This document shows, in pieces, positions 9,915 through 54,192 of a DNA stretch of 64,000 nucleotides. The stretch covers positions 137,043,587 to 137,107,586 of the forward strand of contig CP136061.1 in the NCBI GenBank assembly GCA_032622095.1, in the 5' to 3' direction. Both the position numbers and the translations under genes were made by a program. Position 1 is the first letter of the stretch. Each line of letters opens with the position of its first letter. The DNA is from Siphonodentalium dalli (taxonomy: Eukaryota > Mollusca > Scaphopoda > Gadilida > Siphonodentaliidae). The notes beneath the pieces were generated by a model. The model worked only from the letters and a program-made list of their open reading frames with translations. It was not told the DNA's origin and searched no databases.

Positions 9915-10435
9915 AAATCAAACTATGTATACCATGTAGTTCGGAGTTGATGGTTTTAATTTGAGAAGCATTTTACAAAATGTAAGGTGGACACGTTCAA
10001 TGATAGAGTTGTCTCCCATACCCACATACATCACACCCGTACAGCATTACAGGTAAGACAATAGTGTCAAACAATCGTAAATGGTTAATGACCGATAATT
10101 GTTTTTAATTTAGACCTTCACATTTTAAACACGTCATGCATAACTCTGGTCGCTTTCGTAGCTATTTCACGCTTTGTCTGCACAAAAGAGCCATTTCTTG
10201 TGAGTTGTATGTCCAAGTAAGTGAATGACTTAACGATGCCTAGTTCATCATTTTTATATGTAAAACGGAATTTTATGTTGCCTCCCTCTACCAAATACCA
10301 TTACCGTGGTTTTCTGCAAATCCTCTTTCGTTTCTGATATAATTACTGTATTCTGCGTATAGTAAAGCATCAAGTTTCAGGTAAGTATTCAGTTTTATTT
10401 GGAGCTCTGTGGTTAATTATTGCATTCCTCTCAAC
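9915..10435 (-). pseudogene. LINE B RT distal part and C-terminal region
   Basis: Minus-strand blocks read LLYAEY (10348-10359, in the place of the catalytic xYADD), then IVKSFTYLDIQLTRNGSF and VQTKREIATKATRV, LFDTIVLPVMLYGC, and RVHLTFCKMLLKLKPSTPNY. These follow the order of the RT thumb and post-RT region of this LINE group (SFxYLG, YGSE-like, FCKxLL). The change from ADD to AEY and several frame breaks mean no active enzyme. Confidence 0.82.
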
Positions 10436-12362
10436 GGGTGTGACTAAACACCGCCCGGACCAGCCCGGACCAGCCCGGACCCCCCATATGGACTATATGA
10501 GTGATTGTAAGGCCAATATAAGCGGCACTTCCGTTTGACCTTGACCACTCTCCGTGCGTATTTGGGTTTCATTAACACCCTCGCACATGTATGGATACTA
10601 AAATCACACCTGGACGCAGCAGGGGCGGTCCGGGCTGTTAGCTTCATTTCACGGCGAACATTTTCGCCGATGCCGGCATTTTGAGGGTTAATAGCGACCC
10701 TGAGTGGGTTTCCATGACACCCCTGCACTTATATTGGCCTTACAATCACTCATATAGTCCATATGGGGGTCCGGGCTGGACTGGGATGGTCCGGGCTTTC
10801 AGCGTCGTTATCGTTAAACATAATCGGTGATGCGGCATTTTGGGGGTTAATTGCCAGGCATTCGTGGGCGACTCGCCCTTGTATCTTCGTGAGTGTAGTC
10901 GAGGGTAGTTCCACAACACATATGTAAGGAGTTATTAGAAGTACGAGGACATTAAGGGGGTCCGGGCTGTGAATTTGTTTATTGGGGGCGCAATTTTTTA
11001 ATTCTGGCTGAATCTGGGAAGTTTAGGGGTTAATAAGCGGCACTTCCGTTTGACCTTTACCACTCTCCGTGCGTATTTGGGTTTCATTAACACCCCCGCA
11101 CAGGTATGGATACTAAAATCCCACCTGGACGCAGCAGGGACGGTCCGGGCTGTTAGCTTCATTTCGCGGCGAACATTTTCGCCGATGCCGGTATTTTGAG
11201 GGTTAATAGCGACCCTGAGTGGGTTTCCATGACACCCCTGCACTTATATTGCCCTTACAATCACTCATATAGTCCATATGTGGGGTCCGGGCTGGACCGG
11301 GATGGTCCGGGCTGGTCCGGGCTGTCAGCGTCGTTATCGGTAAACATAATCGGCGATGGCGGCATTTTGGGGGTTAATTGCCAGGCATTCGTAGGCGTCT
11401 CGCCCTTGTATCTTCGTGAGTGTAGTCGAGGGTAGTTCCACAACACATATGTAAGGAGTTATTAGAAGTACGAGGACATTAAGGGGGTCCGGGCTGTGAA
11501 TTTGTTTATTGGGGGCGCAATTTTTAAATTCTGGCTGAATCTGGGAAGTTTAGGGGTTAATAAGCGGCACTTCCGTTTGACCTTGACCACTCTCCGTACG
11601 TATTTGGGTTTCATTAACACCCTCGCACATGTATGGATACTAAAATCACACCTGGACGCAGCAGGGGCGGTCCGGGCTGTTAGCTTCATTTCACGGCGAA
11701 CATTTTCGCCGATGCCGGCATTTTGAGGGTTAATAGCGACCCTGAGTGGGTTTCCATGACACCCCTGCACTTATATTGGCCTTACAATCACTCATATAGT
11801 CCATATGGGGGGTCCGGGCTGGACTGGGATGGCCCGGGCTGTCAGCGTCGTTATCGGTAAACATAATCGGTGATGGCGGCATTTTGGGGGTTAATTGCCA
11901 GGCATTCGTGGGCGACTCGCCCTTGTATCTTCGTGAGTGTAGTCGAGGGTAGTTCCACAACACATATGTATTAAGGAGTTATTAGAAGTACGAGGACATT
12001 AAGGGGGTCCGGGCTGTGAATTTGTTTATTGGGGGCGCAATTTTTTTATAATTCTGGCTGAATCTGGGAAGTTTAGGGGTTAATAAGCGGCACTTCCGTT
12101 TGACCTTGACCACTCTCCGTGCGTATTTGGGTTTCATTAACACCCCCGCACAGCATTCTGAACTCCTCGACCTCCTGAAACGGTGACGGAATCTGACGAG
12201 GTTTGCCGAATGCCCCGCACAGGTATGGATACTAAAATCCCACCTGGACGCAGCAGGTGGGATTTATATTGCACTTATATTGGCCTTACAATCACTCATA
12301 TAGTCCATATGGGGGGGGTCCGGGCTGGTCCGGGCTGGTCCGGGTGGTGTTTAGTCACACCG
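10436..12362. mobile_element. Element H1: non-autonomous TIR transposon with 8-bp target duplication
   Basis: A 1927-bp insert in LINE B flanked by CTCTCAAC on both sides (10428-10435 and 12363-12370). The terminal inverted repeats are about 85 bp and nearly identical: GTGTGACTAAACACC, then CCGGACCAGCCCGGACCAGC, then CCATATGGACTATATGAGTG. An 8-bp duplication fits hAT-type, Merlin or P-type transposons; the ends do not decide between them. No transposase is present. The interior is three head-to-tail units of about 515-527 bp plus a partial fourth. The open frames here (for example minus strand 10444-10728, 10998-11243, 11462-11770) are repeats of one non-coding unit, not genes. Confidence 0.92.
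10519..12279 (+). repeat. Internal ~520-bp tandem units of H1
   Basis: TAAGCGGCACTTCCGTTTGA recurs at 10519, 11034, 11561 and 12084, giving unit lengths of 515, 527 and 523 bp. Each complete unit also carries a GTCCGGGCTG-rich segment and the sub-terminal CACTCATATAGTCCATATG block, so parts of the element's end are repeated inside it. Unit identity is high, implying recent amplification. The last unit is cut short by about 300 bp and includes a unique segment (about 12153-12215). Confidence 0.92.
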
Positions 12363-12370
12363 CTCTCAAC

Positions 12371-26619: not shown

Positions 26620-26654
26620 CTATGGAACGCAATAGCTGCCTTATATTGCTGATT

Positions 26655-26905
26655 GTCTTTATATGCAGATACGTTGTCAATATATGTAGATACTTTGTCA
26701 ATATATGCAGATATTTTGTCATTATATGCCGATACTTTGTCTTTATATGCAGATACTATGCAGATAATTTGTCATTATATGTAGATACTTTGTCATTATA
26801 TGTAGATACTTTGTCTTTATATGCAGATATTTTGTCTTTATATGCAGATACTTTGTCTTTATATGCAGATACTTTGTTAATATATGCAGATACTTTGTCG
26901 GTATA
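26655..26905 (+). repeat. 21-bp tandem array, left
   Basis: About 12 units of TTTATATGCAGATACTTTGT plus C, with substitutions at a few positions (GTAGAT for GCAGAT, CATTATATG for CTTTATATG). Because 21 is a multiple of 3, it gives long frames in both strands (heptads such as YADTLSL on plus, and KYLHIKT on minus). Confidence 0.93.
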
Positions 26906-27076
26906 ATTATGTAGTTGTATGCAGGTAGGCCTACCTTGCTTTTTGTGCAAATATCTGTTAAAAAGAAAACTATTATTAAATTTATAGTTTTTCCGTGAAA
27001 TTTCCGTTTCAAGAACACATGTTCATTCCTGCTTTTGTACGATTTCGGATGATGTAGGTTTCTTTTTAACGCGTTT

Positions 27077-27200
27077 GTGTACGACGTGGAAGATATTCTT
27101 AACAAGAAAACCATAATCATAAATGGTAACGCCCTCAAGATCATATTATTAGCCATAAATATAAATTATAATATAAAATATATTGGTTACATGAATTCAG
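27077..27200. repeat. Repeat D7, copy 1
   Basis: 27105-27165 is an inverted, nearly identical match to 35490-35550. In both, the strand carrying ATGGCTAATAATATGATCTT can be read as MANNMILRALPF. Also, ATAATATAAAATATATTGGT at 27168-27187 recurs as AGAATATAAAATATATTGGT at 27573-27592. Confidence 0.8.
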
Positions 27201-28290
27201 CGCCTCAGAATTCCGTTAAAACAACTAATCCTTCGAATTATTACAAACATCTACGGTTTATTACTGCAGGTTTCTCATTCACCTCACCAGAAAGCTTCTA
27301 AATGCGGATCAAAAATCGGAGGTAGTGTGTTCCCGCCAAGAGTGCATGGTCCAGCCATTGTTCATACCTAAATATCGAAAGCAATTAACGCGGTCATAAT
27401 TGTTACATACTGCAACTATAAGACATCCAGCAGATACATACCCCACGAAAACCCGAAATGTGTTGTCCTGCGAGAAATCCCATCGATATAGCTCAATTTG
27501 ACACGGCCAGATTAGACTTCCTACAATATCCATAAACAAGATCATATATTATATAACCATGATTTTAATTATAGAATATAAAATATATTGGTTTCGCGAA
27601 TGACCAACTCAAAATAACAATAACAACCAGCACCTAATTAACGAACCGGCGGCCGACTCCAACCATGCACAACCATCAGTGGGCTGCAGAACGAAAATAT
27701 CTCTAAAAGTTGAAATATAAGACTTACAACTTATCTTTTAAATTTCTATTATTGGTAATTGACATAGCTTGTCACAAACCAAAAATCAAGATTATTGACA
27801 TAATAATGTAAAGGACAATAAACGAAATTGAAATTCCCAAGAACACCTTTTACCGGTGACCGGTGATCGCGCAGTTCGACTTTTAAATAAATAAACCGGA
27901 AAAACCAATTTTCTATTTATAAAACGCTCATCGGCTCACGTCTTTCTAATATTTGGCCACCAGTATACACGCGGGCGTGCTAAAAAGCTAAACTTGGATG
28001 GGCTAACTGATTTCAGATTTTAAGCGCATTTTTTCCGGAACATTAAGTTGCAATAAAAAAGTGGAGCGCGTCACGGAACGGACCACGTGCAGAAAATTCC
28101 ACGTATATCATAATTGACACAAAACTGAACTAATATGATTGGCATAATAATCTTATCGCCTGATAAATATACACATTAGGCAAATAGTGATAACAATAAA
28201 TTGTGAACTTTAGTTTCAGTCAGCCACCTGGAATGAGATCGGTTCCGTTTGTCTTCAGACTTGGCTTCCGCAAAATGGATACAACATATA
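27200..28290. other. Centre of the 21-bp-array element
   Basis: No gene recognised. The block 27790-27890 (ATAAACGAAATTGAAATTCC, CACCTTTTACCGG) is an inverted match to 34670-34770. A 78-codon minus frame (27309-27545) has no known motif. Confidence 0.5.
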
Positions 28291-28317
28291 ATATCATGGA
28301 ACGAACGTATAATGAAA

Positions 28318-28508
28318 AGAATCCGCATATAATGACAAAGTATCTGCATATAATGACAAAGTATCTGCATAGAAAGACAAAATATCTACATATAATGGCA
28401 GGGTATCTGCATATAAAGACAAAGTATCTACATATAATGACAAACTATCTAAATATAATGACAAAGTATCTGCATCTAATGACAAAGTATCTGCATCTAA
28501 TGACAATC
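28318..28508 (-). repeat. 21-bp tandem array, right (inverted)
   Basis: About nine units of ATAATGACAAAGTATCTGCA plus T, the reverse complement of the left array. It starts and ends inside mirrored flanks of the same element. Confidence 0.93.
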
Positions 28509-28540
28509 GACAATATAAGGCAGCTATGGCGTTCCATACT

Positions 28541-45723: not shown

Positions 45724-48700
45724 GAAGAGCAGTATTACATGCAGCATGACAGAAGAGCAGTATTACACGCAGCATGACAGAGGAGCAGTATTACACACAG
45801 CATGACAGAAGACCAGTATTACACGTAGCATGACAGAAGAGCAGTATTACATGCATCATGACAGAAGAGCAGTATTACACGCATCATGACAGAAGAGCAG
45901 TATTACATGCATCATGACATAAGAGCAGTATTACATGCAGCATGACAGAAGAGCAGTATTACATGCAGCATGACATAAGAGCAGTTTTACATGCAACACG
46001 ACAGAAGAGTAGTATCACATGCAGCATGACATAAGAGCAGTATTACATGCAACACGACAGAAGAGCGGTATTACATGCAGCATGACAGAAGATCAGTATT
46101 ACACGCAGCATGACAGAAGAGCAGTATTACATGCAGCATGACATAAGAGCAGTTTTACACGCAGCATGACAGAAGAGCAGTATTACATGCAGCATGACAT
46201 AAGAGCAGTATTACATGCAGCATGACATAAGAGCAGTATTACATGCAATACGACAGAAGAGCAGTATCACATGCAGCATGACATAAGAGCAGTATTACAT
46301 GCAGCATGACATAAGAGCAGTATTACACGCAGCATGACGGAAGAGCAGTATTACACGCAGCATGACAGAAGAGCAGTATTACACGCAGCATGACATAAGA
46401 GCAGTATTACACGCAGCATGACATAAGAGCAGTATTACACGCAGCATGACGGAAGAGCAGTATTACATGCATCATGACATAAGAGCAGTATTACATGCAG
46501 CATGACAGAAGAGCAGTATTACATGCAGCATGACAGAAGAGCGGTATTACACACAGCATGACAGAAGAGCAGTATTACATGCAGCATGACATAAGAGCAG
46601 TATTACATGCAGCATGACATAAGAGCAGTATTACACGCATCATGACAGAAGAGCAGTATTACATGCAGCATGACATAAGAGCAGTATTACATGCAGCATG
46701 ACATAAGAGCAGTATTACATGCAACATGACAGAAGAGCAGTATTACATGCAGCATGACAGAAGATCAGTATTACACGCAGCATGACAGAAGAGCAGTATT
46801 ACATGCAGCATGACATAAGAGCAGTATTACATGCAGCATGACATAAGAGCAGTATTACATGCAACACGACAGAAGAGCAGTATCACATGCAGCATGACAT
46901 AAGAGCAGTATTACATGCAGCATGACATAAGAGCAGTTTTACATGCAACACGACAGAAGAGTAGTATCACATGCAGCATGACATAAGAGCAGTATTACAT
47001 GCAGCATGACATAAGAGCAGTATTACATGCAACACGACAGAAGAGCAGTATTACATGCAGCATGCCATAAGAGCAGTATTACATGCAACACGACAGAAGA
47101 GCAGTATCACATGCAGCATGACATAAGAGCAGTATTACATGCAGCATGACAGAAGAGCAGTATTACATGCAGCATGACAGAAGAGCAGTATTACACGCAG
47201 CATGACAGAAGAGCAGTATTACATGCAGCATGACATAAGAGCAGTATTACATGCAACACGACAGAAGAGCAGTAACACATGCAACACGACAGAAGAGCAG
47301 TATTACATGCAACACGACAGAAGAGCAGTATCACATGCAGCATGACATAAGAGCAGTATTACATGCAGCATGACAGAAGAGCAGTATTACATGCAGCACG
47401 ACAGAAGACCAGTATTACATGCATCATGACAGAATAGCAGTATTACATGCAGCATGACATAAGAGCAGTATTACATGCAGCATGACATAAGAGCAGTATT
47501 ACATGCAGCATGACAGAAGAGCAGTATTACACGCAGCATGACAGAAGAGCAGTATTACATGCAGCATGACATAAGATCAGTATTACATGCAGCATGACAG
47601 AAGAGCAGTATTACACGCAGCATGACAGAAGAGCAGTATTACAGCATCATGACAGAAGAGCAGTATTACACGCAGCATGACATAAGAGCAGTATCACATG
47701 CAGCATGACATAAGAGCAGTATTACATGCAGCATGACATAAGAGCAGTATTACATGCAGCATGACAGAAGAGCAGTATCACATGCAGCATGACACAAGAG
47801 CAGTATTACATGCAGCATGACATAAGAGCAGTATTACATGCAATACGACAGAAGAGCAGTATCACATGCAGCATGACATAAGAGCAGTATTACATGCAGC
47901 ATGACATAAGAGCAGTATTACACGCAGCATGACGGAAGAGCAGTATTACACGCAGCATGACAGAAGAGCAGTATTACACGCAGCATGACATAAGAGCAGT
48001 ATTACACGCAGCATGACATAAGAGCAGTATTACACGCAGCATGACGGAAGAGCAGTATTACATGCATCATGACATAAGAGCAGTATTACATGCAGCATGA
48101 CAGAAGAGCAGTATTACATGCAGCATGACAGAAGAGCGGTATTACACACAGCATGACAGAAGAGCAGTATTACATGCAGCATGACATAAGAGCAGTATTA
48201 CATGCAGCATGACATAAGAGCAGTATTACACGCATCATGACAGAAGAGCAGTATTACATGCAGCATGACATAAGAGCAGTATTACATGCAGCATGACATA
48301 AGAGCAGTATTACATGCAACATGACAGAAGAGCAGTATTACATGCAGCATGACAGAAGATCAGTATTACACGCAGCATGACAGAAGAGCAGTATTACATG
48401 CAGCATGACATAAGAGCAGTATTACATGCAGCATGACATAAGAGCAGTATTACATGCAACACGACAGAAGAGCAGTATCACATGCAGCATGACATAAGAG
48501 CAGTATTACATGCAGCATGACATAAGAGCAGTTTTACATGCAACACGACAGAAGAGTAGTATCACATGCAGCATGACATAAGAGCAGTATTACATGCAGC
48601 ATGACATAAGAGCAGTATTACATGCAACACGACAGAAGAGCAGTATTACATGCAGCATGCCATAAGAGCAGTATTACATGCAACACGACAGAAGAGCAGT

Positions 48701-51537
48701 ATCACATGCAGCATGACATAAGAGCAGTATTACATGCAGCATGACAGAAGAGCAGTATTACATGCAGCATGACAGAAGAGCAGTATTACACGCAGCATGA
48801 CAGAAGAGCAGTATTACATGCAGCATGACATAAGAGCAGTATTACATGCAACACGACAGAAGAGCAGTAACACATGCAACACGACAGAAGAGCAGTATTA
48901 CATGCAGCATGACAGAAGAGCAGTATTACATGCAGCATGACAGAAGAGCAGTATTACATGCAGCATGACAGAAGAGCGGTATTACACACAGCATGACAGA
49001 AGAGCAGTATTACATGCAGCATGACATAAGAGCAGTATTACATGCAGCATGACATAAGAGCAGTATTACACGCATCATGACAGAAGAGCAGTATTACATG
49101 CAGCATGACATAAGAGCAGTATTACATGCAGCATGACATAAGAGCAGTATTACATGCAACATGACAGAAGAGCAGTATTACATGCAGCATGACAGAAGAT
49201 CAGTATTACACGCAGCATGACAGAAGAGCAGTATTACATGCAACATGACAGAAGAGCAGTATTACATGCAGCATGACAGAAGAGCAGTATTACATGCAGC
49301 ATGACAGAAGAGCGGTATTACACACAGCATGACAGAAGAGCAGTATTACATGCAGCATGACATAAGAGCAGTATTACATGCAGCATGACATAAGAGCAGT
49401 ATTACACGCATCATGACAGAAGAGCAGTATTACATGCAGCATGACATAAGAGCAGTATTACATGCAGCATGACATAAGAGCAGTATTACATGCAGCATGA
49501 CATAAGAGCAGTATTACATGCAGCATGACAGAAGAGCAGTATTACATGCAGCATGACAGAAGAGCGGTATTACACACAGCATGACAGAAGAGCAGTATTA
49601 CATGCAGCATGACATAAGAGCAGTATTACATGCAGCATGACATAAGAGCAGTATTACACGCATCATGACAGAAGAGCAGTATTACATGCAGCATGACATA
49701 AGAGCAGTATTACATGCAGCATGACATAAGAGCAGTATTACATGCAACATGACAGAAGAGCAGTATTACATGCAGCATGACAGAAGATCAGTATTACACG
49801 CAGCATGACAGAAGAGCAGTATTACATGCAGCATGACATAAGAGCAGTATTACATGCAGCATGACATAAGAGCAGTATTACATGCAACACGACAGAAGAG
49901 CAGTATCACATGCAGCATGACATAAGAGCAGTATTACATGCAGCATGACATAAGAGCAGTTTTACATGCAACACGACAGAAGAGTAGTATCACATGCAGC
50001 ATGACATAAGAGCAGTATTACATGCAGCATGACATAAGAGCAGTATTACATGCAACACGACAGAAGAGCAGTATTACATGCAGCATGCCATAAGAGCAGT
50101 ATTACATGCAACACGACAGAAGAGCAGTATCACATGCAGCATGACATAAGAGCAGTATTACATGCAGCATGACAGAAGAGCAGTATTACATGCAGCATGA
50201 CAGAAGAGCAGTATTACACGCAGCATGACAGAAGAGCAGTATTACATGCAGCATGACATAAGAGCAGTATTACATGCAACACGACAGAAGAGCAGTAACA
50301 CATGCAACACGACAGAAGAGCAGTATTACATGCAACACGACAGAAGAGCAGTATCACATGCAGCATGACATAAGAGCAGTATTACATGCAGCATGACAGA
50401 AGAGCAGTATTACATGCAGCACGACAGAAGACCAGTATTACATGCATCATGACAGAATAGCAGTATTACATGCAGCATGACATAAGAGCAGTATTACATG
50501 CAGCATGACATAAGAGCAGTATTACATGCAGCATGACAGAAGAGCAGTATTACACGCAGCATGACAGAAGAGCAGTATTACATGCAGCATGACATAAGAT
50601 CAGTATTACATGCAGCATGACAGAAGAGCAGTATTACACGCAGCATGACAGAAGAGCAGTATTACAGCATCATGACAGAAGAGCAGTATTACATGCATCA
50701 TGACATAAGAGCAGTATTACACGCAGCATGACACAAGAGCAGTATTACACGCAGCATGACAGAAGAGCAGTATTACAGCATCATGACAGAAGAGCAGTAT
50801 TACATGCATCATGACATAAGATCAGTATCACATGCAGCATGACACAAGAGCAGTATTACACGCAGCATGACATAAGAGCAGTATCACATGCAGCATGACA
50901 TAAGAGCAGTATTACATGCAGCATGACATAAGAGCAGTATTACATGCAGCATGACAGAAGAGCAGTATCACATGCAGCATGACACAAGAGCAGTATTACA
51001 TGCAGCATGACAGAAGAGCAGTATTACATGCAGCATGACATAAGAGCAGTATTACATGCAGCATGACATAAGAGCAGTATTGCATGACATAAGAGCAGTA
51101 TTACATGCAACACGACAGAAGAGCAGTATTACATGCAGCATGACATAAGAGCAGTATTACATGCAGCATGACATAAGAGCAGTATTACATGCAACACGAC
51201 AGAAGAGCAGTATCACATGCAGCATGACATAAGAGCAGTATTACATGCAGCATGACAGAAGAGCAGTATTACATGCAGCATGACATAAGAGCAGTATTAC
51301 ATGCAGCATGACAGAAGAGCAGTATTACATGCAGCATGACATAAGAGCAGTATTACATGCAGCATGACATAAGAGCAGTATTACATGCAGCATGACAGAA
51401 GAGCAGTATTACATGCAGCATGACATAAGAGCAGTATTACATGCAGCATGACATAAGAGCAGTATTACATGCAGCATGACAGAAGAGCAGTATTACATGC
51501 AGCATGACAGAAGAGCAATATTACATGCATCATGATA
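45724..51537 (+). repeat. 28-bp satellite array, about 207 monomers, with higher-order structure
   Basis: Monomer AGAGCAGTATTACATGCAGC plus ATGACATA, repeated over 5.8 kb with single-base variants (CATGACAGA, CACGCAGC, CAACACGACAG, CATCATGAC). Marker variants recur at fixed distances: GCATGCCATAA at 47061, 48656, 50084 (1595 and 1428 bp), GCAATACGAC at 46245 and 47840 (1595 bp), and GCGGTATTACACACA at 46541, 48136, 48976, 49312, 49564 (1595, 840, 336, 252 bp). These are 57 monomers minus one base, then 51, 30, 12 and 9 monomers. A 28-bp unit with TGA and TAA carries no frame, so it is non-coding. No CENP-B-box-like motif is visible. Confidence 0.97.
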
Positions 51538-53793: not shown

Positions 53794-54192
53794 AAACTTA
53801 ATGACAGAATAGAGGATCAGAGCGGTAGATTGGTGACACTTAATGACATAATAGAGGATCAGAGCGGTAGATTGGTGACACTTAATGACATAATAGAGGA
53901 TCAGAGCGGTAGATTGTTGACGCTTAGTGATATAATAGAGGATCAGAGCGGTAGATTGGTGACGATTAGTGACAGAATAGAGGATCAGAGCGGTATATTG
54001 GTGACGATTAGTAACAGAATAGAGGATCAGAGCGGTAGATTGGTGACGATTAGTGACATAATAGAGGATCAGAGCGGTAGATTGGTGACGATTAGTGACA
54101 GAATAGAGGATCAGAGCGGTAGAATTGTGACGATTAGTGACAGAATAGAGGATCAGAGCGGTAGATTGGTGACGATTTTCACAAGCTACTAG
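53794..54192 (+). repeat. 42-bp tandem repeat with an open 14-residue-repeat frame
   Basis: Nine units of GACAGAATAGAGGATCAGAG plus CGGTAGATTGGTGACGATTA plus GT. One plus frame is open from 53794 to 54192 and reads VTISDRIEDQSGRL-type repeats with a few substitutions (LND, IED, GIL). There is no ATG; the frame begins after a TAA at 53791 and ends at TAG (54190-54192). One minus frame is also open through a unit, so openness is partly a property of the 42-bp length. It could be an internal exon (AG precedes AATAGAGG at 53806) or just a minisatellite. Confidence 0.85.

Follow-up and report, generated by a model that had tools for sequence, protein, structure and literature searches.

An asymmetric insertion in a LINE of Siphonodentalium dalli that very probably derives from a foldback MULE

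Analysis of a 64,000-nucleotide stretch of Siphonodentalium dalli DNA (the window; positions 137,043,587 to 137,107,586 of contig CP136061.1, assembly GCA_032622095.1) revealed a 1,925-bp insertion in a LINE, which is very probably a non-autonomous, shrunken and asymmetric derivative of a foldback MULE. A sequence-only reading of the same DNA had described a TIR transposon inserted in a LINE and interpreted it as a MITE-like element that grew by adding tandem units. Its description of the insert was confirmed almost to the base, with two refinements: a single extra base outside the inverted repeat, and a left end that is the remnant of an opposed arm.

The sequence CTCTCAAC is present on both sides of the insert, at 10428-10435 and 12363-12370 (read from the sequence), as that reading had it. 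A single G lies at 10436 and again at 12362 (both plus strand), between the duplication and the inverted repeat, and just inside it at each end lies an inverted 16-mer, GGTGTGACTAAACACC (10437-10452, plus; 12346-12361, minus), which is an imperfect palindrome of the form GGTGT..ACACC. Inside it lie subterminal decamer repeats, (GCCCGGACCA)x2.9 at 10453-10481 (plus) and again at the right end at 12317-12348 (minus), which are candidate transposase-binding sites. The inverted similarity of the two ends reaches approximately 86 bp at 97% identity, in agreement with the near-identical terminal repeats of about 85 bp described earlier. The 86 bp at 10437-10522 (minus) form the remnant of a 3' arm and are opposed in orientation to the units on their right. 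The two arms meet at a centre junction (10518-10522) with a 5-bp microhomology, ATAAG, and the interior that follows repeats directly at intervals of 515, 527 and 523 bp, every unit containing a copy of the subterminal block, as had been described for internal units of 515-527 bp. The 5' arm consists of units at 10518-11032 (515 bp), 11033-11559 (527 bp) and 11560-12082 (523 bp), and of a terminal partial unit at 12083-12361, all on the plus strand. The partial unit is internally deleted and carries a filler of about 59 bp (12154-12212) between two copies of CCCCGCACAG, again as read from the sequence. At 12144-12222 this unrelated filler is followed by a deletion with an inverted repeat, ATCCCACCTG/CAGGTGGGAT, an arrangement that looks like repair by template switching.

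Other repeats were seen elsewhere in the window. The stretch at 26621-28538 is a second foldback-like element, with opposed arms of tandem repeats of about 21 bp (TTGTCATTATATGCAGATACT), outer ends that read TATGGAACGC... and possibly a 7-bp flanking sequence, ACTAAAC. Two tandem arrays were also found: 5.8 kb at 45724-51535, with approximately 208 copies of a 28-bp unit (GAAGAGCAGTATTACATGCAGCATGACA) at 92% matches, and nine copies of a 42-bp unit at 53798-54177, at 94% matches.

When the joined LINE flanks were used as a query, many loci matched straight through the target, with up to 91% identity over about 240 bp, and approximately 20 other LINE copies are continuous across the insertion point. 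These clean empty sites bear out the earlier proposal of a transposon inserted in a LINE. The further claim that removal of the insert restores the LINE frame stands in part: the joined flanks do read SSWLRG in a minus-strand frame, but this frame runs into a stop three codons further on, and the Pfam RVT_1 match to the joined reading is only weak. Insertion into one LINE copy is therefore better backed by the uninterrupted LINE loci than by the reading frame.

Exact copies of the terminal 16-mer number 436 in forward and 445 in reverse orientation across the 2.23-Gb genome, against none for the reversed control; the ends are thus not a product of chance, and the family has 881 exact ends or more. 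Most of the copies sampled come from contig C1, where many inward-facing end pairs lie 178 bp to 32.7 kb apart, and the sampled copies span 178 bp to 10.9 kb. Exact target duplications were found in 16 of the 24 pairs read (8 bp in 11, 9 bp in four and 10 bp in one), a duplication with one mismatch in three more, including a doubtful one of 18-19 bp (L055), and none was seen in the remaining five of the 24; two of the pairs (L047 and L049) have common flanks and are not independent. The sequence-only reading had named duplications of other lengths as evidence against itself. Such lengths do literally occur, 9 bp being common and 10 bp found once, yet they are normal for MULEs, for which target duplications of 8-11 bp have been reported (PMC6446971). 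Seven copies (L021, L022, L029, L032, L033, L041 and L043) combine the same terminal 16-mer with different subterminal sequence, so several subfamilies have these ends in common, and perhaps the transposase as well.

In nearly all sampled copies, units of approximately 517/527 bp lie on the minus strand in the left arm and on the plus strand in the right arm, and the number of full-length units per arm ranges from 0 to 9, in line with the earlier expectation that copies with other unit numbers should exist. The sampled copies thus have the long inverted ends, built of tandem repeats in variable number, by which the foldback class is recognized. Unit runs also reach about 14 kb and are satellite-like (C1:196575326-196589344). 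Such long arrays speak for the view that the insert is a satellite-type array which acquired transposon ends on both sides by a chance insertion or recombination event and is not a transposition unit at all. We regard this as extremely unlikely: at more than 15 separate sites the same combination of ends, opposed arms and target duplications is found, and the site in the LINE is cleanly empty in other copies.

Read as a foldback derivative, the window copy has a left arm that consists of the first approximately 86 bp of an arm, joined through the ATAAG overlap to about 3.5 units of the other arm. With up to two mismatches allowed, the 30-base junction has a single occurrence in the genome, compared with 1,414 occurrences for the matching stretch of an ordinary unit, and the window form is therefore private; loss of the core and of one arm is the simplest reading. 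Other coreless copies have differing centre junctions, mostly with overlaps of 0-7 bp and some with a short filler or an older, divergent unit. In one coreless copy of 779 bp, the centre (L023:1602-1631) forms a perfect palindrome whose halves directly adjoin (TGAGTGATTGTAAGG|CCTTACAATCACTCA).

The earlier suggestion to seek out an element with these termini and determine its transposase family proved fruitful, and the family found is MULE. In a 10.9-kb copy (L058), the arms enclose a core of 3.7 kb that matches MULE weakly. A fuller core, that of L080 and L071 on C6, gave the MULE domain PF10551 (E 6.9e-7, 30.1 bits against a cut-off of 27.6) and, in hand-joined exons, a PHD finger at the N terminus, PF00628 (E 1e-5, with 25.9 bits, where the cut-off is 24, and 25 of 47 profile positions covered); PF00872 remained below its cut-off (E 1.3e-3), and Pfam reported no FLYWCH or SWIM match in this core. 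The PHD exon has Tyr in place of the expected next Cys, so the C6 copy may be impaired. The motifs D-[RK]-TFNL, G-[ST]-D-[DE]-E, C-x2-H and NN-x-CES-x-N are conserved in five diverged relatives and are taken as marking the catalytic D, D and E. At C1:196275741-196308462, matches to the 5' part and to the catalytic part are accompanied by units on both sides; this is a complete, enlarged element with both arms, a core and a 9-bp target duplication, GGGCATACA. Related MULE transposases with long open frames (>1000 aa) were also seen at G000:C8:69474844, C5:248312806 and C2:204964041 (L082-L084); these are possibly intact and of other families.

The DDE domain, together with duplications of 8-10 bp, places the family in the MULE superfamily. 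A foldback element of another superfamily, such as hAT, P (as in Galileo) or Merlin, could be considered because 8 bp is the commonest duplication class and some members of these groups also make duplications of 8 bp. However, the transposase that lies between such arms is MULE, with D-D-E and C-x2-H conserved and a Pfam match above the cut-off, and 9-bp duplications are common, which leaves this assignment with hardly any probability.

In all 24 copies, the two sides agree in the extra terminal base (G in 13, C in 11). Polarity could be read from four independent copies in which a core, or what remains of one, was usable (L057, L058, L072 and L075/L076): relative to the transposase, the 5' end is C-GGTGTG and the 3' end, where seen, is G-GGTGTG. 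In the window, the G at 10436 marks the 3' end of the element and the right end reads C-GGTGTG on the minus strand, as a 5' end does; by this terminal-base rule the window copy is reversed and its long arm is the 5' arm. Origins of the extra base as a copy of the target or as a circle junction were considered and rejected: it is only ever G or C, it is equal on both sides even where there is no duplication, and in the four independent cases it is tied to the direction of the transposase.

Loss or gain of whole units could be seen directly. The L058 insertion and a second locus about 105 kb away have common flanks and the same 9-bp duplication, CAAACATTA; from the left arm of the second locus exactly three units, 4-6, are missing (1,581 bp), and the right-arm units match. 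This second locus, a segmental duplicate of L058 (L078 and L079, C1:196736400-196752900), also carries a nested insert of approximately 13.9 kb in its right arm. In L055, units 2-4 and units 5-7 are 100% identical, a duplicated three-unit block. Slippage or unequal exchange, the processes invoked by the sequence-only reading, would produce such changes. Among 122 units, the nearest neighbour lies in the same arm in 32.5 cases against 3.7 expected and in another element in 63.5; local amplification is thus real, atop inherited variation. As about half of the units have their nearest counterpart in another element, most unit diversity is inherited, not made locally.

These shifts by whole units, and the existence of a genuine MITE of 178 bp that has these 16-mer ends (L053), are the points in favour of a MITE-like element that was enlarged from a one-unit ancestor by replication slippage or unequal exchange. 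We nevertheless consider this origin very unlikely and do not retain this part of the earlier interpretation. Typical copies have two long, opposed arrays, coding copies have both a core and arms, and the short arm of the window copy ends in a private junction that fits loss better than growth. MITEs are short, uniform and non-coding and arise by internal deletion, a description that does not suit a copy of 1,925 bp whose junction is single in the genome.

A full element of the foldback family carries, at both ends and in opposed orientation, the 16-mer palindrome, the decamer repeats and an arm of approximately 517/527-bp units, and, in coding copies, a core between the arms that encodes a transposase with a PHD finger at its N terminus and a MULE DDE domain. 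In the mechanism proposed for the derivative, the transposase would bind the ends, and the element would be cut and pasted in trans. During repair of breaks inside the element or left by it, the repeated arms could misalign and whole units would be lost or gained, and the same repair may delete the core and one arm at junctions of little homology. The window copy is very probably one such product, in which a private deletion removed the core and nearly all of the 3' arm, either during its entry into the LINE, shortly before it or later. Points against this reading are the five pairs with no duplication and the doubtful one of L055, the Tyr in the C6 PHD exon and the large share of units that resemble a unit of another element most.

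Other foldback elements whose arm units vary have been described (Tetris, Galileo, Tm1 and Muta1), and the present family is a further example. Tetris from Drosophila virilis has arm tandem repeats of about 220 bp, allelic copies with three or four units and large, satellite-like arrays (PMC4079207); it resembles the window family in its foldback form, in arm repeats that have sequence in common with the outer domain and in whole-unit differences. However, no transposase was found for Tetris, whereas here the unit is approximately 520 bp and coding copies are present. Galileo in D. mojavensis and D. buzzatii has long inverted repeats in which internal tandem repeats expand or shrink independently at each end (PMC3573991), but it has a P-superfamily transposase, unlike the MULE family of the window. 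Tm1 of Meloidogyne is a MULE/foldback family whose composite ends vary in length and bear asymmetric motifs beyond the inverted repeat (PMC3169594); it differs in its repeats of about 14 bp, in an asymmetric motif of 7 bp compared with one base here, and in its Phantom-like transposase. Muta1 of Aedes aegypti is a MULE and a type 2 foldback element, with a palindromic motif at its termini and, next to it, subterminal tandem repeats of about 12 bp, duplications of 8 or 9 bp and hundreds of non-autonomous copies (PMC5225508). The window family is likewise a MULE with a terminal palindrome (the GGTGT..ACACC 16-mer) and short subterminal repeats (the decamers), the combination that characterizes the Phantom/Muta1 type. 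In contrast, Muta1 has ends of 145 bp without arrays of ~520-bp units, and the N-terminal domain here is a PHD finger. The zinc fingers surveyed for the Phantom/Muta1 type were none, FLYWCH or SWIM (PMC6446971), and since some Phantom members have no finger, the family may still belong to that group with a PHD finger and no FLYWCH or SWIM match.

The PHD finger is the main point of interest, as among the MULE-like groups in Table 1 of PMC6446971 it is listed only for Rehavkus, which also has 9-bp duplications and a minisatellite near the 3' terminal repeat and has been reported from arthropods and annelids. The C6 copy (PF00628) has a PHD-finger MULE-like transposase as Rehavkus does, and duplications of 9 bp were found in four of the 24 pairs and in the complete element; however, 8 bp is commonest here (11 of 24), and in place of a minisatellite there are tandem arrays of ~520-bp units, in both arms. 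On a comparison by description, the family may belong to Rehavkus. We also put forward, as a speculative proposal that is rather unlikely as a whole, that the family is a PHD-finger, Rehavkus-like MULE in which transposition itself drives unit turnover, each excision and gap repair resetting arm length with ~520-bp satellite arrays as a by-product, and in which the fixed base that differs between the ends (C at 5', G at 3') marks functional polarity. For a number of foldback families, Tetris among them, the known copies all lack their transposase, and ideas on how the arms lengthen and shorten are mostly guesswork. In the present genome, hundreds of ends occur alongside several coding copies, a complete element with two arms and one insertion that is found at two loci with a difference of exactly three units, and arm turnover thereby becomes measurable; the combination of a PHD-finger MULE transposase with arms of Tetris-like design may also help to place the little-known Rehavkus group.
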